64,000 nucleotides of DNA from Actinomadura chibensis NBRC 106107. Its GTDB lineage: Bacteria; Actinomycetota; Actinomycetes; Streptosporangiales; Streptosporangiaceae. Where the stretch lies: positions 1 to 64,000 of the forward strand of contig NZ_BCQP01000054.1 of assembly GCF_001552135.1 (NCBI RefSeq), in the 5' to 3' direction. The position numbers were made by a program, and so were the translations under genes. Shown piece after piece: positions 23,682-43,541 of this stretch. The notes below the pieces were generated by a model, which saw only the letters and a list, made by a program, of their open reading frames with translations, made no database searches and was not told where the DNA came from. Each line of letters starts with the position of its first letter. Positions within the stretch are counted from its first letter, which is position 1.

Positions 23682-24941
23682 TTAGGACGGGGTGAAGCGG
23701 ACCGGCAGCTCTTTCAGGCCGTTGACGAAGTTCGACCGGAGCCGCCGGGGCTCGCCCGCCGGGCCGATGTCGGGCATCCGGTCCAGGATCGTCTCAAAGA
23801 TGATCTTCAGGTTCATTCGGGCGAGGTGGGTGCCGAGGCAGAAGTGCGGGCCGCCGCCGCCGAACCCGAGGTGCGGGTTGGGGTCGCGGCCGACGTCGAA
23901 GGAGAACGGGTCGTCGAACACGCGCTCGTCGCGGTTGGCCGAGCCGTAGAACAGCACGACCTTGTCGCCCGCCTTGATCTCCTTGCCGCCGAGCTCGACG
24001 TCGGACAGGGCCGTCCGGCGGAACTGGTTGATCGGGCTCACCCAGCGGACGATCTCCTCGACCGCCGTCGGCAGCAGGCTCCGGTCGGCGCGCAGCCGCT
24101 CCCACTGGTCGGGGCGCTCGAAGAACGCCTGCATGCCGCCCGCCGTCGCGGTCCGGGTCGTCTCGTTCCCGGCGATGCCCAGCATGATCACGAAGAGCGC
24201 GAACTCCTCCTCGCTGATCCGGTTGCCGTCCGCGTCCGGGGTGAGGAGCTTGGTCACGATGTCGTCGCGCGGCGTGGACTCGCGGGCGCGGGCCAGCTCG
24301 CCCGCCCAGCCCGCGAACTCGGCGGCGCAGAGCTGCGACTCCGTCCGGTCGCCGATGTAGTCGGGGTCGTTGAACGCGACCAGCTTGTTCGACCAGTGGA
24401 AGACCTTCGCGCGGTCCTCAAGGGGGGCGCCGAGCAGCTCGCAGATCGTGTAGAGCGGCAGCGGGGCGGCGAAGTGCTCGACGAAGTCGCACTCGCCGAG
24501 CGGCGCCGCCTCGTCGATGAGCTTGTCGCAGATCTCGCGGATGTGGTCCTGGAGCTTCCCGATCATGCGGGGGGTGAAGCCCTTGTTGACCATGGAGCGC
24601 AGGCGGGTGTGGTCGGGCGGGTCCTGGAACAGCATCATCTGGCCGTAGAGGGCGATGTCCTCGTCGGTGAACTCCTCGAACATCGCCGTCCGCGCGTGGG
24701 AGGAGTACGGGTCGGCGCGCCGCGACACCTGCACCACGTCCTCGTGCCGGGTGATCGCCCAGAACCCCGGCACGCCCTCGTTCGGGTCCTGGTGCCAGTG
24801 GACGGGGTCGTTGTCGCGCAGCCACTGGAACTGCCGGTGCGGGATCCCGCCGCGCTCGTAGACCCCCGGGTCGATGACGTCGATCTCGGGAGCGCGGAAC
24901 GGCCGCGCGGCGGAGGCGGTGGACGTGGCGACAGCAGCCAT
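23682..24941 (-). CDS. cyp125: CYP125-like steroid C26-monooxygenase (P450)
   Basis: 419 residues. I-helix A-G-N-E-T-T near 245, E-I-V-R (ExxR) near 290, heme loop F-G-G-G-G-P-H-F-C-L-G. Similarity to mycobacterial CYP125 runs the whole length (H-T-R-L-R then G-F-T-P-R; L-F/V-F-H-W-S-N; F-V-I-M-L-G-I-A-G-N-E-T-T-R; D-P-F-S-F-D-V-G-R-D-P-N-P-H). CYP125 oxidises the terminal side-chain methyl of cholest-4-en-3-one, starting side-chain degradation. ATG 24941 with GAAGGG. A perfect KstR box lies 75 bp upstream. Unlike the mycobacterial igr operon, no fadE28/29 or chsH genes follow. Confidence 0.82.
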   Translation of the reverse strand: MAAVATSTASAARPFRAPEIDVIDPGVYERGGIPHRQFQWLRDNDPVHWHQDPNEGVPGFWAITRHEDVVQVSRRADPYSSHARTAMFEEFTDEDIALYGQMMLFQDPPDHTRLRSMVNKGFTPRMIGKLQDHIREICDKLIDEAAPLGECDFVEHFAAPLPLYTICELLGAPLEDRAKVFHWSNKLVAFNDPDYIGDRTESQLCAAEFAGWAGELARARESTPRDDIVTKLLTPDADGNRISEEEFALFVIMLGIAGNETTRTATAGGMQAFFERPDQWERLRADRSLLPTAVEEIVRWVSPINQFRRTALSDVELGGKEIKAGDKVVLFYGSANRDERVFDDPFSFDVGRDPNPHLGFGGGGPHFCLGTHLARMNLKIIFETILDRMPDIGPAGEPRRLRSNFVNGLKELPVRFTPS

Positions 24942-24986
24942 GGAAGACCCTTCGTGCCGGGGTGGGGGACCGCGCGCCGGTCTTTG

Positions 24987-25000
24987 ACTGAGCGCTTGCT
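24987..25000. promoter_or_regulatory. Second palindrome, KstR2-like
   Basis: Read on the minus strand, AGCAAG-CG-CTCAGT resembles the KstR2 consensus (AnCAAGnnCTTGnT) at 8 of 10 fixed positions. It lies between the KstR box and the P450 start. It may be a second control site or chance. Confidence 0.25.
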
Positions 25001-25015
25001 CGGTCCCCGCGGACC

Positions 25016-25029
25016 TAGAACAGGTTCTA
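25016..25029. promoter_or_regulatory. Perfect KstR box upstream of cyp125
   Basis: TAGAAC-AG-GTTCTA, perfect 6-bp arms, identical to the mycobacterial KstR operator architecture. It lies 75 bp upstream of the CYP125-like start and 89 bp from the end of the MBL gene on the same strand. Confidence 0.8.
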
Positions 25030-25117
25030 ACATGAGACTGGGGTCTCATCAAGGGTCCAGCGGCCCGAGTGACCCGGGTCGCACCCGTCTCTCACCCCGC
25101 CGTCCGGGACGAGCCGG

Positions 25118-26107
25118 TCAGCGCAGGACGTACCGGAGCGGGTCGTCGGTCCCGTCGCGGCGCGCGATCCCGCGCGTCTCCAGCGTGCGGAGGTGCGCGG
25201 CGGCCTCGGCGGCGGCCATCCGGCGGGCCTGCTGCGACATGTCCGCCCACGGGTGCCGCCAGGTCAGCCCGGCGGTGAGGTCCCACAGCGTGACCGGACG
25301 GGCCGACAGCAGCGCCGCCACCTCCGCGAGCCGCTCCTCGTGGTGGGCGATGATCTCCCGGGCGCGTCCGGCGAGGCCGGTGAAGCGGTACTGGTGGGCG
25401 GGCAGGACCTCGTCCGCGGACATCGCGGAGACCTTGTCGAGCGAGCCGAGGAAGTCGCCCAGCGGGTCGACGTCCGGGAAGTCGTAGGGGTAGAGGCCGA
25501 TGTGCGGGGTGATGCGCGGCAGGACGTGGTCGCCGGTGAAGATCCGGTCGCCGTCCTCCAGGTGGAGGCAGATGTGGCCGGGGGAGTGGCCGGGCGTCCA
25601 GATGACGCGGAGCCTGCGGCCGGGCAGGTCGACGAGGTCGCCGTCGGAGACCTCGCGGTCCGGCAGCGCGGGCGGGGAGACGCGCGGGCCGTCGCCCCGG
25701 GCGCCGAGCTCCGACTCGGCGGCCCCGGCGCGGCGCAGCGCGGTCAGCTCGAACTCGCGCCGCCCGCCCTGCCCGGCGGACCGGAACAGCTTGACGATCC
25801 CGGCGTCCGCCGGGTGCATGGCGATCCAGGCGCCGGACGCCTCGCGGACGCGTCCCGCGAGCCCCGCGTGGTCGGGGTGGTAGTGCGTGACGACCACGCC
25901 GCGCACGTCGGCGACGTCGATCCCGAACGCGGCGAGCCCGCCGCGCAGGGCGCTCCAGGCGTCCTCGTGCTGCCAGCCCGCGTCGATCAGGACGGGCCCG
26001 CGCGGGCTCTCCAGCGCGTACACGAGCGTGTAGGCGAGCGGGTTGTCCGGGATGGGGACTGGAACGCTCCAGAGTCCGCCGCCGAGGTCTTCGGGTTCCG
26101 GCTGCAA
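25118..26107 (-). CDS. MBL-fold metallohydrolase with C-terminal helical domain
   Basis: 329 residues. Metallo-beta-lactamase core with T-H-Y-H-P-D-H-A-G near 83, a third His in G-H-S-P-G-H and F-T-G-D-H-V-L-P near 200, all metal ligands present. A winged-helix-like tail (about 250-329) is typical of glyoxalase II-type and lactonase-type proteins such as LACTB2. TTG start at 26107 with AAAGGCGG upstream. It lies between fadA5 and cyp125 on the same strand, so a thioester- or lactone-hydrolysing role in steroid or lipid catabolism is plausible but unproven. Confidence 0.78.
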   Translation of the reverse strand: MQPEPEDLGGGLWSVPVPIPDNPLAYTLVYALESPRGPVLIDAGWQHEDAWSALRGGLAAFGIDVADVRGVVVTHYHPDHAGLAGRVREASGAWIAMHPADAGIVKLFRSAGQGGRREFELTALRRAGAAESELGARGDGPRVSPPALPDREVSDGDLVDLPGRRLRVIWTPGHSPGHICLHLEDGDRIFTGDHVLPRITPHIGLYPYDFPDVDPLGDFLGSLDKVSAMSADEVLPAHQYRFTGLAGRAREIIAHHEERLAEVAALLSARPVTLWDLTAGLTWRHPWADMSQQARRMAAAEAAAHLRTLETRGIARRDGTDDPLRYVLR

Positions 26108-26183
26108 GGAGACCGCCTTTCGCGCCGCGGGCGGCGGCGCCGGTGGGATCGGGGCCCCGGTGACCTTACCCGGAGCGCGGACG

Positions 26184-26212
26184 GGGCCCAGGGGGCGCGT
26201 CCCCCTGGGCCC
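26184..26212. terminator. Stem-loop downstream of fadA5
   Basis: Perfect 12-bp stem GGGCCCAGGGGG (26184-26195) paired with 26201-26212 and a 5-nt loop, just beyond the end of the minus-strand thiolase gene. No T-tract. Probable terminator or mRNA 3-prime protector. Confidence 0.6.
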
Positions 26213-26234
26213 GGCGCGGGTCCGACGCGGCGCG

Positions 26235-27963
<1,729 letters not shown>

Positions 27964-28134: not shown

Positions 28135-28164
28135 GAGAGCCCAGCCATGAGAGCCCAGCCATGA
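28135..28164 (+). repeat. Tandem 14-bp duplication creating a 5-codon leader frame
   Basis: GAGAGCCCAGCCAT occurs twice head to tail (28135-28148, 28149-28162). The first ATG (28147) has the good ribosome site (GGGGAGAG) and encodes only MRAQP before TGA at 28162-28164. That stop overlaps the second ATG (28161), the in-frame start of the OleA-like gene. Translation of the operon is thus probably by re-initiation. Confidence 0.65.
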
Positions 28165-29162
28165 GGGCACGCATCACCGCCGTCGCGGCGCACCTGCCCG
28201 CGCGGACGGTCACGAGCGCCGAGGTCGAGGCGCGGGTCGCGGCCGAGAGCGGCGGCTACCGGCCGCGCCCGACGATCGTCGAGCGGATGACCGGCATCCG
28301 GGCGCGGCACGTCATGGCGGACGGCGAGCAGGCGTCCGACCTCGCCGTCGCGGCGGCCCGGCGGGCGCTCGCCGAGCGCGGGACGCGGCCCGAGGGCCTC
28401 GACCTGATCGTCTTCGCGTCCGCGTCGCAGGACCTGATCGAGCCCGCCACCGCCCACATCGTCGCCGCGAAGCTCGGCGCGTCCTGCCCGGTGTTCGACG
28501 TCAAGAACGCCTGCAACAGCTTCCTCAACGGGCTGCAGGTGGCGGACGCGCTGATCCGCACCGGGCAGCACGAGCGGGTGCTCGTGTGCACGGGGGAGAG
28601 CCCGTCGCGCGCGGTCCGGTGGAAGGTGCGCGACCGGGCGCAGTTCGCGGACGCCTTCGCGGGCTACACGCTGTCCGACGCCGGGGCCGCGATGCTCGTC
28701 GAGGCGTCCCCGGACGGCGGGATCTTCTACCGCGACTTCGCCGCCGTCTCCACCGCCTGGCCGGTCGGGACGCTCCCGGCGGGCGGCTCGATGCGCCCCC
28801 GCGACCCCGACGCCGGCTACTTCAGCGGGGACGGGCGGCGGCTCCGCGACGTGTTCGTCGCCGCGGGCCCGGAGATCTTCACGACCGCGCTGCACAAGAC
28901 CGGCCTGGCCTGGGACGACTTCGCCGTCGTCGCCGTCCACCAGGTGACGGTGCCGTATCTGGAGGTGCTGCGGACGGTCCTCGGCGTCCCCGCCGACCGG
29001 CTCGTCGTGACGCTGCCCGAGCACGGCAACACGGCGTCGGCGAGCCTGCCGCTGCAGCTCGCCACCGCCCGGGCGGCCGGGCGCTGCGGCCCCGGCGACC
29101 GGGTCGCGCTGATCGGGCTGGCGGGCGGCGTCAGCCTCGGCGTCGTGTTCGCGGAGCTGTGA
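28161..29162 (+). CDS. oleA: OleA-like thiolase-fold condensing enzyme
   Basis: 333 residues, KAS III/thiolase fold with complete triad: Cys in V-K-N-A-C-N-S-F near 116, His in V-A-V-H-Q-V near 256, Asn in E-H-G-N-T near 287. It resembles OleA more than FabH: D-L-I-E-P-A-T-A-H-I-V, C-T-G-E-S-P-S-R-A-V, A-F-A-G-Y-T-L and H-Q-V-T-V-P-Y replace FabH's H-Q-A-N. OleA joins two fatty acyl-CoAs head to head into a 2-alkyl-3-ketoacid. It is the first gene of a five-gene operon with OleC- and OleD-like enzymes. Alternative: a related KAS III making another beta-keto product. Confidence 0.78.
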   Translation: MRARITAVAAHLPARTVTSAEVEARVAAESGGYRPRPTIVERMTGIRARHVMADGEQASDLAVAAARRALAERGTRPEGLDLIVFASASQDLIEPATAHIVAAKLGASCPVFDVKNACNSFLNGLQVADALIRTGQHERVLVCTGESPSRAVRWKVRDRAQFADAFAGYTLSDAGAAMLVEASPDGGIFYRDFAAVSTAWPVGTLPAGGSMRPRDPDAGYFSGDGRRLRDVFVAAGPEIFTTALHKTGLAWDDFAVVAVHQVTVPYLEVLRTVLGVPADRLVVTLPEHGNTASASLPLQLATARAAGRCGPGDRVALIGLAGGVSLGVVFAEL

Positions 29163-29164
29163 GC

Positions 29165-29917
29165 ATGCGGCTGTGGGTCGTCGTCCCCGCCTACGACGAG
29201 GAGCGCTCGATCGGCGCGACGCTGCGCCGCCTCGCCGAGCAGACCGACACCGCGTTCACGCTGGTCGTGGTCGACAACGGCAGCACGGACGGGACGGCGC
29301 GGGTGGTCAAGGAGTTCGCCGCCGGGGACGTTCCGTTCGACGTCCGGATCGTCCACGAGCCGGAGAAGGGGACGGGCGCCGCCGCCGACACCGGCGTCCG
29401 GCACGCGATCGCCGCCGGGGCGACGCACGTCGCGCGCACCGACGCCGACTGCCTCCCGGACCGGGGCTGGGTCGCGGCGGTGAAGCGCGCGTTCGGCGAC
29501 GGCCTCGAGCTGGTGTCGGGCCCGCTGCTGCCCCGGACCGACGAGTTCCCGCTGAAGTTCTGGGAGCGCCGCCTGCTGCCCGCCGTGATCCGGGTCGCCG
29601 CGCTGTTCGGACGGTTCCGCCCCGGCAATCAGGACCCGCTCTACCTCGGCCCCTACGTGATGATGCCGGGCTGCAACCTCGCCATCACCGCCGACCTGTA
29701 CGAGCGGTCGGGCGGGTTCCCGCGCACGCGGATCGAGGACGTCCACGAGGACCGCGCGCTGGTCAACCGCGTCCGCTACCTGACCGCCGCCTACGGGCTG
29801 CGCGACGACGTCACCGTGTACGGGTCGGTCCGGCGGCTGCGGGCGTACGGCCTGGTCAGGACGCTCGGCTGGTACGCCGACCACCGCTACCGCCCGCCCG
29901 TCGTGGACATCCGGTGA
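29165..29917 (+). CDS. GT2 family glycosyltransferase
   Basis: 250 residues, GT-A fold: V-V-P-A-Y-D-E-E-R-S near 6, V-V-V-D-N-G-S-T-D-G near 35, metal-binding T-D-A-D near 92, and the acceptor-side I-E-D-V-H-E-D near 190. No membrane segments. It starts 2 bp after oleA and overlaps the P450 by GTGA. In this setting it could glycosylate the condensed lipid or its oxidised derivative; characterised ole and beta-lactone operons have no such gene (inference). Confidence 0.82.
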   Translation: MRLWVVVPAYDEERSIGATLRRLAEQTDTAFTLVVVDNGSTDGTARVVKEFAAGDVPFDVRIVHEPEKGTGAAADTGVRHAIAAGATHVARTDADCLPDRGWVAAVKRAFGDGLELVSGPLLPRTDEFPLKFWERRLLPAVIRVAALFGRFRPGNQDPLYLGPYVMMPGCNLAITADLYERSGGFPRTRIEDVHEDRALVNRVRYLTAAYGLRDDVTVYGSVRRLRAYGLVRTLGWYADHRYRPPVVDIR

Positions 29918-31074
29918 GGGCCCCGGACTGGGAGCGCCGCCTCTACCTGGCCGCGCATCCGTTCGCGTACCCGCTGCTGCGCGCGGCGGCCCGGCGCGGG
30001 CCGATCGTCCGCGTGCCGGGCGTCGGGGTCGTCGTGAACGACGCCGCGCCGGCGCGCGCGATCCTCATGGACGGCGGGACGTTCCGCAAGGACGGGCCCG
30101 GCTCGCCCGGCGAGCTGTGGACGCCGGTGCTGGGGCCGTCCGTCCTGCTCAACATGGAGGGGGACGCGCACCGGGCGCTGCGGCGGCGGCTCACCGAGCT
30201 GTTCGTCCCGTCCTACACCGAGGCGCTGTGCGCCCGCGTCCTGGACGGGCCGCTCGACCGGCTCGCGGGCCGCCTCCGGAGCGGCGGCGGCGTCGACCTC
30301 GTGGACGCCGCCCGCGTCATGGCGGGCGCCGTGATCGGCGAGGTCATCGGCCTGGACACGCGGACCGACGCCTCCTACCGCGACCTGTTCGAGCAGGGCG
30401 AGCGCGTCGTGTCGGCGGTGTCGCTGCGGACGCGGCGGCTCTCCCCGTCCCAGGTGCGGCGGGCCCGCGCGGTGCTCGACCCGCTGGGCGACATCGCGGC
30501 GAAGGCGTACGCGGCGGGCGACGAGTCCACGGTGATGGGACGCATGCGGGCCCTCGGCCTGTCCGAGGACGAGGCGCGCGGCGCCGCCGGGGCGTTCTTC
30601 CTGACCGGCACCGAGACCGTCGCGACGCTGCTGCCCCGCCTGTTCGCCCTGCTCATCGACCACGGGCAGCTCGCGCGCGTGGCCGCCGAGCCGGGCCTGC
30701 TCGACCGGGCGATCGAGGAGGCGATGCGGGTGGCGACGCCGACGCCGGTCATGCTGCGGAGCGTGCACCGCCCGGCGGCGGTCGGGGGCGTGGCGATCCG
30801 GCCGGGGGAGCGGGTGCTGATCGCGACGCACAACTGCTGCCGCGCGCTCGGTCCGTTCGACCTCGACCGCCCGCACCCGCCGGAGCTGCGGCGGCTGTGG
30901 TTCGGCGCCGGGCCGCACTTCTGCATCGGATACCCGCTGGCCATGGCCCAGATCCGGCGGGTCGCCCGGACGCTGCTCGCCGCCGCGCCGCTCGTCGTCA
31001 CCCGCCGCGCGGCGGCACGCGGCGTCCTCATCCCGACCTACCGGGAACTGGTCGTGCGGAGGGGGTCCGCGTGA
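29914..31074 (+). CDS. Cytochrome P450 of the ole-like operon
   Basis: 386 residues from GTG 29914, slightly short for a P450. I-helix F-L-T-G-T-E-T, E-A-M-R (ExxR) near 273, heme loop W-F-G-A-G-P-H-F-C-I-G. The N-terminal region up to the C helix is compact. It is distinct from the CYP125-like protein. Likely hydroxylates a lipid intermediate or the final product. Overlaps both neighbours by GTGA, so expression is stoichiometric with the ole enzymes. No ferredoxin lies in this operon. Confidence 0.85.
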   Translation: MRAPDWERRLYLAAHPFAYPLLRAAARRGPIVRVPGVGVVVNDAAPARAILMDGGTFRKDGPGSPGELWTPVLGPSVLLNMEGDAHRALRRRLTELFVPSYTEALCARVLDGPLDRLAGRLRSGGGVDLVDAARVMAGAVIGEVIGLDTRTDASYRDLFEQGERVVSAVSLRTRRLSPSQVRRARAVLDPLGDIAAKAYAAGDESTVMGRMRALGLSEDEARGAAGAFFLTGTETVATLLPRLFALLIDHGQLARVAAEPGLLDRAIEEAMRVATPTPVMLRSVHRPAAVGGVAIRPGERVLIATHNCCRALGPFDLDRPHPPELRRLWFGAGPHFCIGYPLAMAQIRRVARTLLAAAPLVVTRRAAARGVLIPTYRELVVRRGSA

Positions 31075-32579
31075 CGCTCGTCCGGCGGCTGCTCGACCAG
31101 GGCGCGCGGACGCCGCGCGCCGTCGCGCTCGTCTCCGGGGACGGGACGCGGCTCACCTACGGCGAGCTGCGGCGGCGGGTGCTGGCCGTCCGGCACGGGC
31201 TGCTGGCGCGCGGGCTCGCGGAAGGGGACGCGGTGCTGTTCTCGGTGCGGCCGTCGCCGGAGGCGCTCGTCCTGGCGCTCGGCACGGTCGCGGCCGGGGG
31301 CGTCGTCGTGTTCGCCGACCCGGGGGCCGGGCCCGAGATGTTCGCCGCGCGGCTGCGGCTCGCGCGTCCGCGCTGGTCGGCGGCCGAGTCGGTGCTCTAC
31401 GCGGGGAGCCGGCTGCGTCCCGTCCGGGCGTACGCGCGGCGGCGCGGGCTGCTGCTGCCGAACCTCGCCGCTTTGCACGGGCCCGATGAGAACGCGATGC
31501 GGCACGTGTACGTCGGTCGCCGCCTGCCCGGCGTGCCGCGCGGCGCGGTGCCGTTCGCGCGGCTGGCGCGCGGCCCCGCGCCGGAGCCGGACCGCGACCC
31601 CGACCCCGGCGCGCCCGCCGCCGTGATCTTCACGTCGGGGACGACGGCCGCGCCGCGCGCCGTCGTCCACACGCAGGCGTCGCTCGCGGCGGCGCTCGAC
31701 CTGTTCCGGACCCGGCTGCCGCTCGGGCCCGGCGACGTCGTCCACACCGACCAGCTCATGCTCGGCCTGCCGACGCTGATCGCGGGCGCGCGCTGGTCGA
31801 TGCCGCCGCTGGCGTGCCCGCCCGCCGAGTTCGCGCGGCTGATGGCGGAGCGGGGCGCGACCCACACGTTCTGCGTTCCCGTCCATCTCGCGGAGATCCT
31901 GGACGCCGTGCCGCGACTGCCCGAGTCGCTCCGGTACGTGCTGCTCGGGGCCGCGCCCGCGCCCGCCGCGATCCTGCGGCGGGCGCTGCGGGCCGCGCCG
32001 TTCGCCGAGGTCCTGTCGGTGTACGCGATGACGGAGATCCTGCCGGTGGCGATCGCGTCGGCGGAGGAGAAGCTCGCGCACACCGGCCCCGGCGACCCGG
32101 TCGGCGCGCCGCTGCCCGGCGTCGGCGCGCGGCTCGCGGGCGACGGCGAACTCCTGCTGTCCGGCCCGAACCTGTGCCGCGGCTACCTCGGCGCGGGCCC
32201 CCTCGCCGAGCTGCCGACCGGCGACCTCGCCCGGCTGGACGGCGGCCGACTCGTCCTCACCGGACGCAAGAAGGACATGCTGATCCGCGGCGAGTTCAAC
32301 CTCTACCCCGGCCTGTACGAGCCGTCGATCGCCGCGCTGCCGGGCGTCGCCGAGGCCGCGATCGTCGGCGTCCCCGACCCGCGCACCGGGGACGAGGAGG
32401 TCGTCCTCGCCGTCGTCGGCGACCCCGGCGACCTGCCGGACCGGCTCCGCCGCGCCCTCCCCGGCGTCATCGACCACGACGCCCTCCCGGACCGGATCGT
32501 CGTCCTGCGCGCCCTGCCGCGCTCCGGCCGCACCCGCAAGCTCGACCGCGACCGCCTCCGCGAACTGGTGCGGCCGTGA
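31071..32579 (+). CDS. oleC: OleC-like AMP-forming enzyme (candidate beta-lactone synthetase)
   Basis: 502 residues from GTG 31071. ANL superfamily: P-loop F-T-S-G-T-T-A-A-P-R near 184, Y-A-M-T-E-I-L-P-V-A near 321, T-G-D-L near 383, and a C-terminal R-K-L-D-R-D-R-L near 492. The T-E-x-L-P-V-A stretch matches OleC, which adenylates a 2-alkyl-3-hydroxyacid and closes it to a beta-lactone rather than a CoA ester. With OleA- and OleD-like partners, beta-lactone synthesis is the best reading. An ordinary fatty-acyl-CoA or AMP ligase is the alternative. Confidence 0.72.
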   Translation: MTLVRRLLDQGARTPRAVALVSGDGTRLTYGELRRRVLAVRHGLLARGLAEGDAVLFSVRPSPEALVLALGTVAAGGVVVFADPGAGPEMFAARLRLARPRWSAAESVLYAGSRLRPVRAYARRRGLLLPNLAALHGPDENAMRHVYVGRRLPGVPRGAVPFARLARGPAPEPDRDPDPGAPAAVIFTSGTTAAPRAVVHTQASLAAALDLFRTRLPLGPGDVVHTDQLMLGLPTLIAGARWSMPPLACPPAEFARLMAERGATHTFCVPVHLAEILDAVPRLPESLRYVLLGAAPAPAAILRRALRAAPFAEVLSVYAMTEILPVAIASAEEKLAHTGPGDPVGAPLPGVGARLAGDGELLLSGPNLCRGYLGAGPLAELPTGDLARLDGGRLVLTGRKKDMLIRGEFNLYPGLYEPSIAALPGVAEAAIVGVPDPRTGDEEVVLAVVGDPGDLPDRLRRALPGVIDHDALPDRIVVLRALPRSGRTRKLDRDRLRELVRP

Positions 32580-33502
32580 GGATCGCGGTGACCGGGGCGT
32601 CCGGGTTCGTCGGCGGGACGGTGTGCCGCGTGCTCGTCGCCGAAGGTGCCACGGCGTTCGCGTTCGGCCGCCGCCCCGCCGTGGACCCGGCGCACGTCGC
32701 CGGCGCGGCCTACCGTTCGTGGGATCTCACGCGCGGCCCGCTCCGCGACGCGCCGGAGGTGGACGCGGTGATCCACTGCGCCGGGAGCGTCACCGACTGG
32801 GGCCCGCCCGCCGGGCTGTTCGCCGCCAACCTGACCGGCACCCGGCACGCGCTCGCCTCCTTCCCCGGCGCGCGGTTCGTCCACGTCAGCACGGCCAGCG
32901 TGTACGACCCGTCCCGGCCGAGCGTGCTCGCCGCCGAGGACGAGGCGCCGGTCGCCCGCTACCCGACCGCCTACGCCGCGTCGAAGGCCGCCGCCGAGCG
33001 GGCCGCCGCGGCGCGCGGCGCGGTCGTGCTGCGGCCGCACGCGGTGTACGGGCCGGGCGACACGACGCTGCTGCCGCGCGTCCTCGCGGCGGTGCGCGGC
33101 CCGCTCCTGCCCGCCGCCGGGACGGGCCGCCAGCGCGTCAGCCTCACCTCCGTCGGCAACCTCGCCCGCGCCTGCCTGCTCGCCGCGGCCGGGCCGGTGG
33201 ACTCGGGCGTCTTCAACGTCGCGGACGCGGCCCCGGTCACGATCGACGGCGCGCTCCGGGAGATCCTGCGCGAGCGGGGCGTCCGGGCGCGTCCGGTGTA
33301 CGTGCCCGCCGGGCTCGCCCGGCCGCTCGCCGCCGTGGCCGAAGGCGTGTTCCTGCTCGCGCGCCGTCCCGACCCGCCGCGCCTCACCCGGTACGCGGTC
33401 GGCCACCTGGCCCTGGAGCGCACGCTCGACATCACGGCCGCGAGGACGGTCCTCGGGTACGACCCCGCGCCCACGTCGTTCGCCGGAGCGGCCGACTGGT
33501 GA
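32576..33502 (+). CDS. oleD: OleD-like NAD(P)-dependent reductase (extended SDR)
   Basis: 308 residues from GTG 32576. Extended SDR/3-beta-HSD type: G-A-S-G-F-V-G-G near 8, catalytic Ser in H-V-S-T-A-S near 103, and Y-A-A-S-K near 133. The C-terminal P-P-R-L-T-R-Y-A-V-G-H-L and T-V-L-G-Y-D-P motifs resemble OleD, which reduces the OleA 3-keto product to the 3-hydroxyacid used by OleC. Last gene of the operon; its stop lies within the first operator of the next gene. Confidence 0.75.
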   Translation: MRIAVTGASGFVGGTVCRVLVAEGATAFAFGRRPAVDPAHVAGAAYRSWDLTRGPLRDAPEVDAVIHCAGSVTDWGPPAGLFAANLTGTRHALASFPGARFVHVSTASVYDPSRPSVLAAEDEAPVARYPTAYAASKAAAERAAAARGAVVLRPHAVYGPGDTTLLPRVLAAVRGPLLPAAGTGRQRVSLTSVGNLARACLLAAAGPVDSGVFNVADAAPVTIDGALREILRERGVRARPVYVPAGLARPLAAVAEGVFLLARRPDPPRLTRYAVGHLALERTLDITAARTVLGYDPAPTSFAGAADW

Positions 33503-34326: not shown

Positions 34327-35187
34327 ATGGAGAGAATCATCGAGGCCAACGGGGTCGAGCTGTGCGCCGAGACGTTCGGGGACGCCGCCGACGCCCCCGT
34401 CCTGCTCATCGGCAACACCATGCTCACCTGGCCGGACGAGCTCTGCGCGCGCCTCGCCGCGCTGCGCAGGCTCGTCGTCAGGTACGACCTGCGTGGCACG
34501 GGGCGGTCCGCGGCCGCCGACCCCGAGGCCCCCGGCTACACGCTGCGCGACCTCGTCGCGGACGCGGCCGGCGTCCTCGACGCGCACGGGCTGCCGTCCG
34601 CGCACGTCGCGGGGTTCGGGGTCGGCGGCTGGATCGCCCAGCTCCTCGCGCTTGACCACCCGTCCCGCGTCCGCACCCTCACGCTCGTCGGGACCCGTCC
34701 GACCGCGCCCGGCCCCGCCGACGCCGACCTGCCCGAGCACGCGCCCGCGCTGATGGCCCACATCATGAACCCGCCCGAGGTCGACTGGGCCGACCGGGCG
34801 TCGGTGGTCGCGTTCATGGTGGAGAGCGCGCGGCACCTCGCCGGGCCGTCCTTCGACGAGGCCGAGGCGCGGAGGACCATCGAGCGGATCTACGACCGGA
34901 CCCCGGTGAAGGGCGACCCCGGCAAGGCGCACCGCGCGAACCAGATGGCGGCCGCGTTCGCCGCGCTCGACGCCGGGCCGCGCTGGCGGGAGCGGCTCGG
35001 CGGGATCACCGCGCCGACCCTGGTGATCCACGGCGAGGACGACCCGTTCTTCCCGCTCGGCAACGGCCGCGCCCTCGCCGCCGAGATCCCCGGCGCCGAG
35101 CTGCTCACGCTGCCCGGCACCGGGAACGAGCTGCCGCGCCGCGTCTGGGACGAGGTCGTCCCGGCGCTGCTGCGGCACACGTCCTGA
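34327..35187 (+). CDS. Alpha/beta-hydrolase-fold protein lacking nucleophile and His
   Basis: 286 residues with the complete alpha/beta-hydrolase fold (L-L-I-G-N-T-M oxyanion region near 27, Y-D-L-R-G-T-G-R-S near 56, I-H-G-E-D-D-P near 236). The nucleophile elbow reads G-F-G-V-G-G instead of G-x-S-x-G-G, so Ser is Gly. The catalytic His of the usual G-H-E-L-P is Asn (G-N-E-L-P near 261). Only the Asp remains. It is thus probably a non-hydrolytic paralogue or binding protein. It is not an OleB: no Asp nucleophile. No Shine-Dalgarno is visible before ATG 34327. Confidence 0.75.
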   Translation: MERIIEANGVELCAETFGDAADAPVLLIGNTMLTWPDELCARLAALRRLVVRYDLRGTGRSAAADPEAPGYTLRDLVADAAGVLDAHGLPSAHVAGFGVGGWIAQLLALDHPSRVRTLTLVGTRPTAPGPADADLPEHAPALMAHIMNPPEVDWADRASVVAFMVESARHLAGPSFDEAEARRTIERIYDRTPVKGDPGKAHRANQMAAAFAALDAGPRWRERLGGITAPTLVIHGEDDPFFPLGNGRALAAEIPGAELLTLPGTGNELPRRVWDEVVPALLRHTS

Positions 35188-37202: not shown

Positions 37203-37279
37203 CCGGAGCGAAGCGAGGATCCTGGCGCGCCCGCCTCGGGGGTCTGGGGGTCGCCCCCCAGAAAGGTAGGGATGCGTGA
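37199..37279 (+). repeat. Intercistronic hairpin/RBS cassette, copy A
   Basis: Copy A (37199-37270) shares two nearly identical blocks with copy B at 39809: ATGACCGnAGCGAAGCGAGG at the left and GGGGTC-N-GGGGG...GCCCCCCAGAAAGGnAGG at the right. The right block forms a GC hairpin, and its AAAGGTAGGG is the ribosome site for uraH. An in-frame 26-codon peptide (37199-37279, M-T-G-A-K-R-G-S start) overlaps the uraD stop (ATGA) and the uraH start (GTGA), linking the two genes by translation. Confidence 0.7.
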
Positions 37280-37590
37280 GTCTCTCGACGCACGTGCTGG
37301 ACGCGGCCAAGGGGCTGCCCGCGGTGGGGGTCGGCGTCCGGTTGGAGCGCCGGGCGGCGGACGGCGGCTGGGCGCCGCTCGCCGAGGCCCGCACCGACGC
37401 GGACGGCCGGATCAGGGATTGGGACGCCGAACCGGGCGCCGGAATTCACCGGCTGGTTTTCGACACCGCCGGGCTGTCGGAGTTCTATCCCGAGGTCGCG
37501 GTGGCGTTCACCGTCACCGACCCGGAAGGGCATGTGCACGTGCCCCTGCTGATCAGCCCGTTCGCCTATTCGACGTACCGAGGGAGCTAG
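37276..37590 (+). CDS. uraH: 5-hydroxyisourate hydrolase
   Basis: 104 residues, transthyretin-like. It hydrolyses 5-hydroxyisourate made by uricase to OHCU. Active-site His (S-T-H-V-L-D near 7), Arg (G-R-I-R-D-W near 46) and the C-terminal Y-R-G-S signature are present. GTG start 37276 is served by the ribosome site at the end of repeat copy A. It precedes uricase by 5 bp. Confidence 0.92.
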   Translation: MSLSTHVLDAAKGLPAVGVGVRLERRAADGGWAPLAEARTDADGRIRDWDAEPGAGIHRLVFDTAGLSEFYPEVAVAFTVTDPEGHVHVPLLISPFAYSTYRGS

Positions 37591-37595
37591 CGGCG

Positions 37596-38459
37596 ATGGC
37601 GACAGTTCTCGGCCCCAATCGCTACGGGAAGGCGGAGACGCGGGTCGTCCGCGTCACTAGGGACGGCGAGGTCCACCACGTCAAGGACGTCAACGTCAGC
37701 GTCTCCCTGTCGGGCGCGATGGACGAGGTCCATCTGAGCGGCGACAACGCGGCCGTCCTGCCGACCGACAGCCAGAAGAACACCGTGTTCGCGTTCGCGA
37801 AGAAGCACGGGATCGCGGCCGTCGAGGAATTCGGGCTGCTCCTGGCGCGGCATTTCGTGGACTCGCAGCCGACCGTCCACCACGCGCGCGTCGAGATCCA
37901 CGAATACGCGTGGGAGCGGATCGAGGGCGGGCATTCGTTCGTCCGGAACGGCGGGGAGACGCGGACGGCGCTGGTGCACAGCGACGGCACCGGCGGGGCC
38001 GAGTCGGTCGTGTCGGGGCTGCGGGACATGGTCGTCCTCAACACGACCGGAAGCGAATTCCATGGGTTCGTCCAGGACCAGTACACGACGCTCGAACCCA
38101 CCGAGGACCGGATGCTCGCGACCGCCGTGACCGCCCGCTGGCGCCACCGCGGAACCGCCGCCTGGGACGACTCCTACCGCGCCGCCCGCGACCGCCTGCT
38201 GCGCGCCTTCGCCGAGACCTACAGCCTCTCCCTCCAGCAGACCCTTTACGCGATGGGCCGCCGTGTGCTCGACGAATGCGCGGGGATCTGCGAAATACGG
38301 CTCTCGATGCCCAACAAGCACCATTTCCTGGTCGATCTGGAGCCGTTCGGCATGGACAACGACAACGAGGTCTACTTCGCGGCGGACCGGCCGTACGGGC
38401 TCATCGAGGGCACGGTGCTCGACGACGCCGCGCCCGCCGTCCCGTCCGCGTGGAACTGA
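37596..38459 (+). CDS. uox: Urate oxidase
   Basis: 287 residues, cofactorless uricase with two T-fold halves. It oxidises urate to 5-hydroxyisourate with O2. Active-site features visible: Lys in R-Y-G-K-A-E-T-R-V near 11, Thr-Asp in L-P-T-D-S-Q-K-N-T near 57, Gln in L-Q-Q-T-L near 216, and Asn/His in P-N-K-H-H near 243. Strong GGGAG ribosome site. Centre of the uraD-uraH-uox triad. Confidence 0.93.
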   Translation: MATVLGPNRYGKAETRVVRVTRDGEVHHVKDVNVSVSLSGAMDEVHLSGDNAAVLPTDSQKNTVFAFAKKHGIAAVEEFGLLLARHFVDSQPTVHHARVEIHEYAWERIEGGHSFVRNGGETRTALVHSDGTGGAESVVSGLRDMVVLNTTGSEFHGFVQDQYTTLEPTEDRMLATAVTARWRHRGTAAWDDSYRAARDRLLRAFAETYSLSLQQTLYAMGRRVLDECAGICEIRLSMPNKHHFLVDLEPFGMDNDNEVYFAADRPYGLIEGTVLDDAAPAVPSAWN

Positions 38460-38466
38460 GAGGGCC

Positions 38467-39339
38467 ATGGACTTCCTACGACCCGCGACCTGGGACGAAG
38501 CGCTCGCCGCCAAGGCGGAGCTGCCCGGCGCGCTGCCCGTCCAGGGCGGCACCGACGTCATGGTCGAGATCAACTTCGCCGCGCGGCGGCCGGAGGCGCT
38601 GCTCGACCTCACCCGGATCGGCGCGCTCGCCGACTGGGACACGGTGGACGGACGGCTCCGCGTCGGCGCGGGCGTCACCTACGCGCGGCTGATCGCCGAG
38701 CTGGGCGGGCGGCTGCCCGGCCTCGCGCAGGCGTCCCGGACGGTCGGCTCGCCGCAGATCCGCAACCGGGGCACGGTCGGCGGCAACCTCGGCGCCGCCT
38801 CGCCCGCCGGGGACGGCCACCCGCCGCTGCTGGCCGGGGACGCGGTGGTCGAGGCGGAGTCGGCGGCGCGGGGCGTGCGGATGATCCCGGCCGCCGAGTT
38901 CTTCACCGGCGTGAAGCGCAACGCCCTCGCCCCGGACGAGCTGATCCGCGCGTTCTGGACGGCGCCCGCGTCCGGCCCGCAGTACTTCGCCAAGATCGGC
39001 ACCCGGAACGCGATGGTGATCGCCGTGTGCTCGTTCGCGATCGCGCTGCACCCGGCGGAGCGGCGGGTCGGGACGGGCCTCGGCTCGGCCGCCCCGACCC
39101 CGCGCCGCGCGCCGGAGGCCGAGGAGTTCATCGCCGCCGAACTCGACTGGGACGGCCGCGGCCCGCTCTCCGAACCGGCCCGGCGGCGGTTCGGCGAGCT
39201 GGTCGCGGCCGCGTCCGCCCCGATCGACGACGTGCGCGGGACGGGCGCCTACCGCGCGCACGCCCTGGCCGTCCTCGCGCGCCGGACGCTCGCCTGGGCC
39301 TGGAACGACCACCGGAAGGAGGCCCGCCGATGCGCGTGA
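38467..39339 (+). CDS. Xanthine dehydrogenase, FAD-binding subunit
   Basis: 290 residues. FAD motifs V-Q-G-G-T-D-V-M near 24 and I-R-N-R-G-T-V-G-G-N-L-G near 99, then the CO-dehydrogenase flavoprotein C-terminal domain. Equivalent to PucC of Bacillus or XdhB of E. coli. It accepts electrons from the Fe-S subunit and passes them to NAD+ or another acceptor. It overlaps the Fe-S subunit gene by 10 bp. Confidence 0.9.
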   Translation: MDFLRPATWDEALAAKAELPGALPVQGGTDVMVEINFAARRPEALLDLTRIGALADWDTVDGRLRVGAGVTYARLIAELGGRLPGLAQASRTVGSPQIRNRGTVGGNLGAASPAGDGHPPLLAGDAVVEAESAARGVRMIPAAEFFTGVKRNALAPDELIRAFWTAPASGPQYFAKIGTRNAMVIAVCSFAIALHPAERRVGTGLGSAAPTPRRAPEAEEFIAAELDWDGRGPLSEPARRRFGELVAAASAPIDDVRGTGAYRAHALAVLARRTLAWAWNDHRKEARRCA

Positions 39340-39812
39340 ACCTGACCGTGAACGGCGCGGCCCAGGCCGTGGACGACGTGTGGGAAGGCGAGAGCCTGCT
39401 CTACACGCTCCGCGAGCGGATTGGCCTGGCGGGCTCGAAGAACGCCTGCGAGCAGGGCGAATGCGGCTCCTGCACCGTCTACCTGGACGGCGTCCCGGTC
39501 TGCGCGTGCCTGGTCGCGGCCGGGCAGGCGGAGGGCCGCGACGTCCGCACCGTCGAGGGCCTCGCGGCGGGGACGCCCGGCGACGAGCGGCTCGACCCGG
39601 TCCAGGAGGCGTTCGCCGAGGCGGGGGCCGTGCAGTGCGGGTTCTGCACGCCGGGCCTGATCGTCCAGTCGCACGACCTGCTCGAACGCAATCCCGCGCC
39701 GACCGACGCCGAGATCCGCGAGGCGCTCGCGGGCAACCTGTGCCGCTGCACCGGCTACGAGAAGATCCTCGACGCGGTCCGCCTGGCGGCCGCACGGAAG
39801 GCGACCCGATGA
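39330..39812 (+). CDS. Xanthine dehydrogenase, 2Fe-2S subunit
   Basis: 160 residues. Plant-type [2Fe-2S] cluster C-E-Q-G-E-C-G-S-C...C (near 40-60) and the second, helical cluster C-G-F-C-T-P-G...C-R-C-T-G (near 102-140). Carries electrons from the molybdenum site to FAD. Stop overlaps ATG of repeat copy B. Confidence 0.92.
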
Positions 39813-39878
39813 CCGCAGCGAAGCGAGGATCATCGGGTCCCTCTCGGGGGTCCGGGGGGCGCCCCCCAGAAAGGCAGG
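39809..39878 (+). repeat. Intercistronic hairpin/RBS cassette, copy B
   Basis: Second copy of the element at 37199. The left block begins with the ATGA that closes the Fe-S gene. The right block contains the perfect palindrome GGGGGGC-GCCCCCC and ends in AAAGGCAGG, the ribosome site for the deaminase. Here the copy is in frame with the deaminase and could be read as a 25-residue Arg/Gly/Ser-rich extension if ATG 39809 were used. Confidence 0.7.
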
Positions 39879-39883
39879 ACCCG

Positions 39884-41227
39884 TTGATCATTGAGAACGC
39901 GCACGTCGTCACCGTCTCCGGGGACGAGTACCCGGACGGTCACATCGTCATCGAGGGCGACCGCATCACGGCCGTCGGCCCTGGCAAGGCACTCGTCCAG
40001 GAGGGGGAGCGCATCGACGGCACCGGGTGCCTCGCCACGCCCGGGCTCGTCAACGCGCACCACCACCTCTACCAGTGGGCGAGCCAGGGCATGGCCGTCG
40101 ACAGCACCCTCTTCGACTGGCTGACCACGCTCTACAAGCCGTGGTCGAAGATGGACGCCGAGGTCGTCGCGGGCGCGGCGACGGCGGGACTCGGGTGGCT
40201 CGCCAAGTCGGGGTGCACGACGTCCGCCGACCACCACTACCTGTTCCCGGCGGGGCGCGGCGACCTGTTCGCGGCCGGGATCGAGGCGGCGCGGGAGGTC
40301 GGCGTCCGGTTCCACCCGTGCCGGGGGTCGATGGACCGGGGCGAGTCGCAGGGCGGCCTGCCGCCGGACGAGGTGGTCGAGGACCTCGACACGATCCTCG
40401 CCGAGACGGCGGCGGCGATCGACCGCCACCACGACCCGTCGCCCGGCTCGATGCTGCGCGTCGGCGTCGCGCCCTGCTCGCCGTTCTCCGTCACCCGCGA
40501 CCTGATGGTCGAGTCCGCGCGGCTGGCGCGCGACAAGGGCGTCCGGCTGCACACCCACCTCGCCGAGACGCTCGACGAGGAGGAGCACACGACCGAGCAG
40601 TTCGGCATGACCCCGGCCGAGTACATGGACTCGATCGGCTGGCTCGGCCCGGACGTGTGGCTCGCGCACTGCGTCCACCTGCGCGACACCGACGTCAAGC
40701 GGCTCGCCGAGACCGGCACCGGCACGGCGCACTGCCCGAGCTCCAACGCCCGCCTCGGCGCCGGGATCGCCCGCGTCGCGGACCTGCTGAAGGAGGGCGC
40801 GCCGGTCGGGCTCGGCGTGGACGGCCCGGCGTCGGCGGAGTTCGTCCCGCTCGCCGGGGAGCTGCGGCAGGCGATCTACATGCAGCGCGCCCGGTACGGG
40901 CCGACCGCGCTGACCGCCCGGCAGGCGCTGGAGATGGCGACGCTCGGCGGCGCCCGCTGCCTCGGCCGGGACGCCGACCTCGGCGCCCTCGAACCCGGCA
41001 AGCTCGCCGACGTCGCGCTCTGGCGGATGGACGGGTTCCGCGCCGCCGTCGACGACCCCGTCGTCGCGTTCGCGTTCGGGCCGGTGCCGCCGCTCGCCCG
41101 CCTCCTCGTCGGCGGCCGGACGGTCGTGGACGCCGACACGCTCGTCACCGTCCCGCAGGACGAGGCCGCGCGGCGCGGCGCCGACGCCCACCGCCGCCTG
41201 CTGAGACTCGCCGAGGAGGTGCTCTGA
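39884..41227 (+). CDS. 8-oxoguanine deaminase-like amidohydrolase
   Basis: 447 residues from TTG 39884. Amidohydrolase with N-A-H-H-H-L-Y-Q near 48 (metal and 8-oxoguanine deaminase signature), H-T-H-L-A-E-T near 222, A-H-C-V-H near 260 and G-V-D-G-P-A-S near 310 (catalytic Asp). 8-Oxoguanine deaminase gives urate directly, and the other subfamily members act on guanine-like or triazine substrates. Its place inside the XDH gene set, between the Fe-S and molybdenum subunits, fits a second route into urate. TTG is preferred to the upstream ATG 39809 because AAAGGCAGG precedes it. Confidence 0.82.
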   Translation: MIIENAHVVTVSGDEYPDGHIVIEGDRITAVGPGKALVQEGERIDGTGCLATPGLVNAHHHLYQWASQGMAVDSTLFDWLTTLYKPWSKMDAEVVAGAATAGLGWLAKSGCTTSADHHYLFPAGRGDLFAAGIEAAREVGVRFHPCRGSMDRGESQGGLPPDEVVEDLDTILAETAAAIDRHHDPSPGSMLRVGVAPCSPFSVTRDLMVESARLARDKGVRLHTHLAETLDEEEHTTEQFGMTPAEYMDSIGWLGPDVWLAHCVHLRDTDVKRLAETGTGTAHCPSSNARLGAGIARVADLLKEGAPVGLGVDGPASAEFVPLAGELRQAIYMQRARYGPTALTARQALEMATLGGARCLGRDADLGALEPGKLADVALWRMDGFRAAVDDPVVAFAFGPVPPLARLLVGGRTVVDADTLVTVPQDEAARRGADAHRRLLRLAEEVL

Positions 41228-41228
41228 C

Positions 41229-43541
41229 ATGACGTCGTCGCCGGTGCGCAGCCCCGGCCATGTCGCCGCGCCGGGCATCGGCGGGGTCGGGGAGAGCCCG
41301 CTCCGCCCGGACGGCACGCTCAAGGTCGCCGGGGAGTTCGCCTACGCGTCCGACCTGTGGATGGACGGCATGCTGTGGGGCGCGACGCTCCGCAGCCCGC
41401 ACGCCCGCGCGCTGATCCGGTCGGTCGACATCGGGCCCGCGCTGGCGGTGCCGGGCGTCCGCGCGGTGCTGACGCACGCGGACGTCCCCGGCCGCGCGAT
41501 GTTCGGCATCGACGGCACCGAGGACCAGCCCGTCCTGGCGATCGACCAGGTCAGGTACCAGGGCGAGCCGGTCGCGCTCGTCGCCGCCGACGATCCGGAG
41601 ACCGCGCGGCGCGCGCTGGAGAAGATCGTCGTGGGCTACGAGCCGCTCGCGCCGATCACCGACCCGCGCGCCGTGATCGCCGACCCGGAGGGGCTGAAGG
41701 TCCAGCGCTTGGGCGGCATCACCCGGTACCAGCCCGTCCGGGTCGGGGACGTGGACGCCGCGAGGGCCGAGGCGGCGGTCGTCGTGTCGGGCGAGTACGA
41801 GGTCGGCATCCAGGACCAGGCGTTCCTCGGGCCGGAGGCCGGGCTTGCCGTCCCGTCCGAGGACGGCGGCGTCGACCTGTACGTCTCGACGCAGTGGATA
41901 CACAACGACCTGAAGCAGATCGCGCCCTGCCTCGGGCTCTCCGCCGACCAGATCCACATGACGCTCGCGGGCGTGGGCGGCGCGTTCGGCGGGCGCGAAG
42001 ACCTGTCCATGCAGCTCCACGCCGCGATGCTCGCGCTGCACACCGGGCGTCCGGTGAAGATGTCCTACAACAGGTACGAGTCGTTCTTCGGGCACGTCCA
42101 CCGGCATCCCGCGCAGATGCGGTACGAGTACGGCGCCGACGCCGACGGGCGCCTCCGCTACGCCGACGTCGAGATCGTGCTCGACGGCGGTGCGTACACA
42201 TCGTCCACGAAGAACGTCGTCGGAAACGCGGCCTCGCTCGGGGTCGGGCCGTACGAGATCCCGAACATTCGTATCGACGCCTACGGCGTGTACACCAACA
42301 ACCCGCCGTGCGGCGCGATGCGCGGGTTCGGGGCCGTCCAGGCGTGCTTCGCCTACGAGTCGATGATGGACAGGCTCGGCGCCGCCTGCGGGCTCGGCCC
42401 GCTGGAGATCCGCCGCCGCAACGCCGTGTCGCAGGGGTCGCGGCTCGCGACCGGGCAGGTCGTCGAGTCGCCCGCGCCGCTCGCCGCGATGCTCTCCCGG
42501 CTGGAGGCGGTCCCGGAGCCGCCGCCGCTCGACCCGTCCGACCTGCGGAACCTGCCGGGCGGGGTGTCGCAGGCGACGCGCGGCGAGGGCGTCGTGCGGG
42601 GCGTCGGGTACGGCGTCGGGCTGAAGAACATCTGCTTCTCCGAGGGGTTCGACGACTACTCCACGGCGCGCGTCCGGCTGGAGGTCATCGGCGGGGAGGC
42701 GACCGCGCTCGTGCACACCGCCGCCGCCGAGGTCGGGCAGGGGCTCGTCACGGTCCAGGCGCAGGTGGCGCGGACAGAGCTCGGCGTCCAGAAGGTCGTC
42801 ATCGCGCCCGCCGACAACCAGGTCGGGGACGCCGGGTCGTCCAGCGCGTCCCGCCAGTCGTACATGTCGGGCGGCGCGGTCAAGGCGGCCTGCGAGGCGG
42901 TCCGCGCGGAGCTGCTCGCGCTCGCCGCGCGCCGGCTGGGCCGCGCCGACCTGAGCCTGGTCGGCGGGAAGGTCGTGTCGCGGGCGGACGGCGCGCTCGG
43001 CACGATCGAGGACGTCCTCGGCGACGCCGTCATCGACGAGACCCGCGAGTACCGGCACCGGCCGACCGTCCCGATGGACCCGGTCACCGGGCAGGGGCGC
43101 AGCCACGTCCAGCTCGCGCTGTGCGTCCACCGCGCCGTCGTCGACGTCGACGTGGACCTCGGGCTCGTCAAGGTCGTCGAGCTCGCCGCCGTCCAGGACG
43201 TCGGCAAGATCATCAACCGGATCGCCCTGGAGGGGCAGATCCACGGCGGGTCCGCGCAGGGCCTCGGCCTCGCCGTGATGGAGGAGATCGTGGTGGCGGA
43301 CGGGCTCGTCCGCAACCCGTCCTTCACCGACTACCTCATCCCGACCATCCTGGACATGCCGCCGATGCGGCTCGACATCCTGGAGATCCCCGACCCGGAC
43401 GCCCCGTACGGGCTGCGCGGCGCGGGGGAGCCGCCGACGCTGTCGTCCACGCCCGCGATCGTCGCCGCGATCCGGGACGCCACCGGGCGGGCGCTGACCC
43501 GCGTCCCGGTCCGTCCCGAGCACATCGTGCACGGGGCCTGA
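41229..43541 (+). CDS. Xanthine dehydrogenase, molybdenum-binding subunit
   Basis: 770 residues, aldehyde oxidase/xanthine dehydrogenase family. Molybdopterin-binding [11 protein letters not shown] near 250, A-M-R-G-F-G near 360, V-G-Q-G near 500, and the catalytic Glu in G-A-G-E-P-P near 733. It hydroxylates hypoxanthine/xanthine to urate with the two electron-transfer subunits upstream. It starts 1 bp after the deaminase stop and precedes allB by 1 bp. Confidence 0.92.

Follow-up and report, generated by a model that had tools for sequence, protein, structure and literature searches.

What product is made by an operon that carries relatives of the olefin biosynthesis proteins OleA, OleC, and OleD together with a family 2 glycosyltransferase (GT2) and a cytochrome P450, and that holds no OleB? 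This question is raised by a five-gene locus at positions 28161 to 33502 of the 64,000-nucleotide stretch of Actinomadura chibensis NBRC 106107 DNA analyzed here (contig NZ_BCQP01000054.1, positions 1 to 64,000; referred to as the window). An initial annotation had read the locus as a candidate new pathway to an oxidized or glycosylated long-chain beta-lactone. The analysis presented here indicates that two fatty acids are probably linked by the operon enzymes to give a long-chain lipid, possibly a beta-lactone, which is then oxidized and given a sugar. The prediction itself repeats a published one, and the cluster in the window belongs to a known, uncharacterized kind.

Gene organization and conservation

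All five reading frames of the operon are open (Table 1), and the junctions are as tight as the initial annotation had claimed: the OleA-like and GT2 genes are separated by 2 bp, and each of the remaining three junctions is a 4-nucleotide GTGA overlap. An in-frame GTG at position 29159 provides an alternative start for the GT2 gene. Related loci were compared in a set of 80, which were the best 80 of 515 by OleA similarity and were therefore selected for closeness. The five genes were found on one strand and in the same order in 73 of these 80 loci (the exceptions being L201, L206, L225, L230, in which the ligase gene is inverted, L232, L236, and L246), and the arrangement is thus not a product of chance. 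Catalytic residues were preserved in the window and, with few exceptions, across the related loci. Flanks outside the cluster, as judged by a crude gene call in 17 loci, varied between families, and the unit was therefore taken to comprise five to six genes; the same neighbor search itself missed some core genes, so its silence is weak. Four neighbor families from this search (F3, F4, F5, and F11) ran antisense to cluster genes and were discarded as shadow frames. The operon is best explained as encoding an actinobacterial lipid pathway of five to six genes.

The GT2 and the P450 are tied to the Ole-like genes by gene fusions, by a second P450, and by a split form of the cluster in which all parts were kept. 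A GT2 match was present in 77 of the 80 related loci, and its residues D93, D95, and D196 were kept in every one of these. An AlphaFold2 model of the GT2 (predicted local distance difference test score, 88.5) had solved glycosyltransferases as its best fold matches. The heme cysteine of the P450, its I-helix Glu-Thr pair, and the arginine of its ExxR motif were kept in 77/77 loci with a match, while the glutamate of this motif was kept in 74 and replaced by aspartate in the other three. GT2 and ligase form a single open frame in three genomes (loci L080, L163, and L225); as these represent one lineage, the fusion perhaps reflects one event. A single open frame also joins GT2 and P450 in locus L148. 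The cluster was split in four genomes (Thermomonospora catenispora, A. craniellae, and two more), where the OleA-ligase part lies apart from the rest and, in three of them, includes a fused GT2. The second locus of this lineage consists of a divergent second P450 (P450b) followed by GT2-P450-OleD, and every part of the cluster was retained. A second, divergent P450 was also detected upstream of OleA in at least 42 of the 80 related loci, and within 364 bp of it in 40 of these 42; the count is a lower bound, since some loci end close upstream. The second P450 was 35 to 42% identical to the operon P450 and was not found in the A. chibensis genome at an E value of ≤1e-40. Both types of fusion, the second P450, the split lineage, and the distribution reported below are additions of this analysis.

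OleA-, OleC-, and OleD-like proteins

The initial annotation had raised grouping with FabH as a result that would speak against an OleA. In a tree that included five FabH-like proteins of the A. chibensis genome and no PqsD, the condensing enzyme grouped with the OleA proteins of oleABCD and oleACDB clusters and apart from the FabH-like proteins, with support of 100/99. Its residues E94, C118, H260, and N290 align, via the structure 3fk5, to E117, C143, H285, and N315 of Xanthomonas campestris OleA, and all four were kept in 80/80 related loci. This correspondence relies on an offset of 20 between 3fk5 and the literature numbering that was derived here, with C143, H285, and N315 being what we take to be the literature numbers. 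The FabH entries 4ryb and 4dfe both carry phenylalanine at the position of OleA Glu117, and a glutamate is called key to OleA condensation in the title of a reference cited by Smith et al. (2020; PMC7064751).

The ligase grouped with OleC in a tree that included 15 adenylate-forming enzymes of the A. chibensis genome (support, 100/99). The same placement was obtained by a quick method in a larger tree with 34 such enzymes, drawn from 76 other adenylate-forming matches in that genome (Shimodaira-Hasegawa-like approximate likelihood ratio test, 98); L254, one of 20 added ligases, was omitted as too short. A TE-x-LPV-A motif is common to the ligase and OleC. Across 77 related loci, this motif read TEILPVA (47 loci), TEALPIA (14), TEMLPVA (7), TEIVPVA (3), TEALPIS (3), or one of three single variants, and it had drifted to TELFPAA or TEAFPVA in the distant orthologs L150, L151, L153, L154, and L156. 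The predicted structure of the ligase is an ordinary adenylate-forming fold, in which lactone-forming and coenzyme A (CoA)-forming enzymes were not told apart.

For the fifth gene, OleD was the best family by profile, as the initial annotation had proposed. Its product scored best on both OleD models (NF042422, 113.9 bits; NF042423, 101.7 bits), followed by the next model at 51.8 bits. It stayed below the OleD cut-off of 580 bits, which was passed by none of 296 genomes of the phylum, carriers of oleABCD included. The catalytic tyrosine was kept in 75/75 and the lysine in 73/75 related loci with a match.

OleB and a second cluster type

The operon is without OleB, as previously noted, and an oleB gene elsewhere in the genome, which the initial annotation had named as a result that would speak against its reading, was looked for and not found. 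When queried with the OleB portion of a fused OleBC and with 61 candidates scored, the A. chibensis genome (98.11% complete; contamination, 5.92%) gave no match at an E value of ≤1e-8. The same search recovered the query's own genome at 100% identity, two controls at 56% and 47%, and five relatives at 40 to 42%. OleB was likewise not found in three further cluster carriers (G042, G114, and G234). Among ten carrier genomes, the query returned nothing in six and matches of 29 to 36% identity, none better than 4e-17, in four.

In four of the five relatives (L086 to L089), the OleB-like genes sit in a second cluster of the order OleA-OleC-OleD-OleB, and in the fifth (G178), the OleB-like match lies near its second OleA. 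OleB-level matches in carriers of the GT2/P450 cluster belong to the other cluster, in G178 by position only. This second cluster type accompanies the GT2/P450 cluster in G002 and G126 and probably in G178. A further order, OleA-OleB-OleC-OleD, was observed in locus L155 of family f20.

Relation to described clusters

The initial annotation knew of no described cluster with this arrangement; here it was mistaken. The portions of PMC7064751 considered here report an OleA-glycosyltransferase-OleC-P450-OleD cluster in Actinoplanes atraurantiacus, in a genome with no oleB, and propose a hydroxylated, glycosylated beta-lactone as its product. The five gene types, the oleB-less genome, and the predicted product are therefore the same as those of the window. 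However, the P450 gene follows OleC in A. atraurantiacus, whereas it precedes the ligase gene in the window, and gene-by-gene orthology between the two was inferred from family-level gene order.

The same portions of the paper assign A. atraurantiacus to the Micromonosporaceae, the family of Hamadaea. Twenty loci, the weakest match included, were chosen from 102 matches in this family. Seven of them had the published order, and ten had this order but carried an additional GT2 gene after OleC and before the P450; of the remainder, one had the window's order, one was cut by a contig end, and one had no GT2 match. The second GT2 in these ten loci (within L290 to L303) could mean that two sugars are added. 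The window GT2 was also considered as a relic of a two-GT2 cluster. This reading was not adopted: the two-GT2 states of the Hamadaea family and of the split lineage fell into different parts of a GT2 tree (quick method, midpoint root), so separate duplications are as likely. In family f20, the published order was observed in L150, L153, and L156, and L151 lacked just the OleD match.

Known olefin clusters of the oleABCD type (L071 to L077) encode homologs of the OleA-, OleC-, and OleD-like proteins with 26 to 38% identity over BLAST pieces. The window differs from them by having no OleB, by the added GT2 and P450, and by a ligase that forms a clade of its own and has a profile unlike that of OleC. 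The oleACDB clusters of the window's family (L086 to L089) have OleA proteins that are 44 to 47% identical and nested near the window clade. These clusters include an OleB-like gene, next to which neither a GT2 nor a P450 was found, and their ligase groups with OleC of the oleABCD type. As far as they could be compared by description, the nocardiolactone and lipstatin clusters resemble the window in having OleA-, OleC-, and OleD-type enzymes and no OleB. Both reportedly employ two OleA-type subunits and have no GT2/P450 pair. The two subunits are LstA and LstB in the case of lipstatin, according to PMC7064751. No description of a product was found for the present cluster type in the literature searched, though a description beyond that literature is possible, and a term search of PMC10262491 returned nothing relevant to it.

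Distribution

The closest relative of the OleA-like protein among the 80 related loci was that of Actinomadura syzygii (97% identity). In a search of 99 genomes for the ligase at an E value of ≤1e-60, it was found in 55 of 60 Actinomadura genomes, that of A. chibensis included, and in 0 of 39 genomes from other families. Of 200 genomes searched in the window's family, 66, from 24 of 68 genera, had a match to the OleA-like protein at an E value of ≤1e-40. These matches fall into two groups, with orthologs at about 65% identity and above in one and proteins at about 41 to 49% in the other. At class level, an E value of ≤1e-60 gave matches in 31 of 394 genomes, both identity groups counted. With Hamadaea's own OleA copy as the query, matches were obtained in 102 of 300 genomes of the Hamadaea family. 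A pathway present in most of the sampled Actinomadura genomes, with its OleA in a third of those sampled from another family, would represent either a lipid or a class of beta-lactone enzyme inhibitors that has been missed. The split and fused versions of the cluster and the OleB-less genomes offer clean comparisons for deciding between the two.

Proposed pathway and alternative products

In the proposed pathway, OleA would condense two fatty acyl-CoAs into a 2-alkyl-3-oxo acid, which OleD would convert to a 2-alkyl-3-hydroxy acid. The OleC-like ligase would then adenylate the carboxylate, allowing the hydroxyl to close the beta-lactone ring, the P450 would hydroxylate one of the chains, and the GT2 would place a sugar on the new hydroxyl. 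As no OleB was found in the genome, the lactone would not be converted to an olefin. We assign a probability of roughly 0.5 to a hydroxylated, glycosylated long-chain beta-lactone as the product of the operon. This reading builds on homology, intact catalytic residues, the lack of a detectable OleB, conserved linkage, and gene fusions, and from these we infer the individual reactions and their order, along with the sugar and the site of oxidation.

Several observations weigh against the beta-lactone. The OleA-like protein scored 188.8 bits on the FabH model PRK09352 versus 172 bits on the OleA-type model PRK09258, where it remained under the cut-off (285 bits) and which was not its best model. 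In contrast, two OleA proteins of oleABCD clusters reached 399 to 426 bits on PRK09258 and 100 to 110 bits on the FabH model. A control OleA from an oleACDB cluster was also below the cut-off (165 bits), yet PRK09258 was its best model. The top solved-structure matches of the window protein were FabH enzymes (128.9 and 125 bits, versus 121.6 bits for OleA). By these profile scores, the protein is not a clear OleA, and it is named OleA-like here. The OleA identity given in the initial annotation is thus supported by the tree and by the Glu, Cys, His, and Asn residues, while the profile scores slightly favor FabH.

A similar discrepancy was observed for the ligase. It formed a deep clade of its own, separate from OleC of both the oleABCD and the oleACDB clusters (100/100), and it scored best on the acyl-CoA ligase model PRK06187 (146.5 bits), followed by a model at 121.9 bits, PRK09274 (111.8 bits), and the OleC model NF045786 (71.9 bits). 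Four comparison OleC proteins, by contrast, were all best on PRK09274 (335 to 567 bits), with two OleC models next and PRK06187 at 150 to 179 bits. The distant ortholog L150 was also best on PRK09274, at just 103 bits. The NF045786 cut-off of 900 bits was not reached by the ligase, but little can be read from this, as all four comparison OleC proteins fell short of it too (267 to 538 bits). As the ranking of models is unlike that of the controls, the ligase is called OleC-like and is not filed as an OleC: the trees and the TE-x-LPV-A motif speak for the earlier OleC assignment, and the profile ranking favors acyl-CoA ligases. The position of the ligase as a sister clade of OleC, together with a profile that differs from that of OleC, is a further finding of this analysis. 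Two more points concern the remaining chemistry. The structure model of the GT2 gave neither a sugar donor nor an acceptor, and according to the portions of PMC7064751 considered here, the A. atraurantiacus OleA was active on p-nitrophenyl hexanoate but was scarce, precipitated, and condensed none of the acyl-CoAs tested.

The separate ligase clade, its profile unlike that of OleC, the GT2-ligase fusions, and the near-constant presence of the GT2 would also suit a mycolate-like glycolipid, which we regard as a rather unlikely but coherent alternative. Here, the ligase would activate the 2-alkyl-3-hydroxy acid made by OleA and OleD, and a sugar handled by the GT2 would be linked to the acyl group as an ester or to the hydroxyl as a glycoside, the lactone not being the end product. 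The prevalence of the ligase in Actinomadura suits a cell lipid no less than it suits a secreted inhibitor, and functionalized hydroxy acids are listed as a third OleA outcome in the legend to Fig. 1 of PMC7064751. However, the ligase still groups with OleC, with which it has the TE-x-LPV-A motif in common, and not with the 34 adenylate-forming enzymes of its own genome. Furthermore, no additional gene, such as one for an acyl transferase, was kept beside the cluster across families in the crude look at 17 loci. It is doubtful, though conceivable, that the ligases of this clade, encoded next to a GT2 and sometimes fused with it, differ in function from the adjoining OleC branch and that the operon leads to a sugar-bearing 2-alkyl-3-hydroxy lipid (or lactone), in the form of a mycolate-like glycolipid near-universal in Actinomadura. 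These bacteria are not known to make mycolates.

The profile scores, on which the best models of the ligase were acyl-CoA ligases, could also indicate that the ligase is an ordinary CoA ligase supplying OleA with unusual acyl-CoAs, the product then being a ketone or a derivative of the oxo or hydroxy acid. The A8 motif of the window ligase is indeed near the CoA-ligase form, in which a glycine is needed for thioester formation. This glycine is not constant, however, being replaced by D or N in 18/77 related loci (RDGV in 10, RDGF in 7, and RNGV in 1). The placement of the ligase with OleC in the trees and the retention of OleD even in split clusters also speak against an ordinary CoA ligase, which we consider improbable. 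An olefin made by the Ole-like genes with the help of an unlinked decarboxylase is highly improbable. The co-occurrence of the GT2/P450 cluster with an OleA-OleC-OleD-OleB cluster in G002, G126, and G178 could be taken in its favor, but these OleB-level genes belong to the other cluster, and OleB was found neither in A. chibensis nor in the three further carriers, nor at OleB level in the ten more carriers searched.

Neighboring genes in the window

The alpha/beta-hydrolase near the operon has a glycine at its nucleophile elbow, as the initial annotation had stated, both in the window and in 25/25 of the related loci in which the gene was found. It may be a conserved protein that has lost its esterase chemistry. 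In the more distant group of purine breakdown genes, the xanthine dehydrogenase-like subunits were below their profile cut-offs, pucD by 0.05 bits.

Table 1. Operon genes and neighboring features in the window (AMP, adenosine monophosphate; NAD(P), nicotinamide adenine dinucleotide [phosphate]; MBL, metallo-beta-lactamase; aa, amino acids)
Feature	Positions	Strand	Remarks
OleA-like condensing enzyme (thiolase superfamily)	28161-29162	+	ATG start, 333 aa; Pfam ACP_syn_III domains
GT2 (family 2 glycosyltransferase)	29165-29917	+	250 aa; Pfam Glycos_transf_2, 5.6e-22
P450 (cytochrome P450)	29914-31074	+	GTG start, 386 aa; Pfam p450, 5e-11
AMP-forming ligase, OleC-like	31071-32579	+	GTG start, 502 aa; Pfam AMP-binding, 2.3e-51
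OleD-like NAD(P)-dependent reductase	32576-33502	+	GTG start, 308 aa; Pfam NAD-dependent epimerase/reductase
P450, MBL-fold hydrolase, thiolase	23682-27410	-	Just upstream of the operon
Alpha/beta-hydrolase	34327-35187		Best matched by macrolide esterase models (232.8 bits; cut-off of 420 not reached)
Purine breakdown genes	37272-43541		Urate oxidase and 8-oxoguanine deaminase exceed profile cut-offs

The thiolase encoded upstream of the operon scored 643.1 bits on a steroid 3-ketoacyl-CoA thiolase model, exceeding its cut-off of 515 bits. Relatives of this thiolase and of the P450 encoded with it were located near the cluster in L168, L185, L213, and L215, accompanied by a relative of the MBL-fold protein in three of these four loci.

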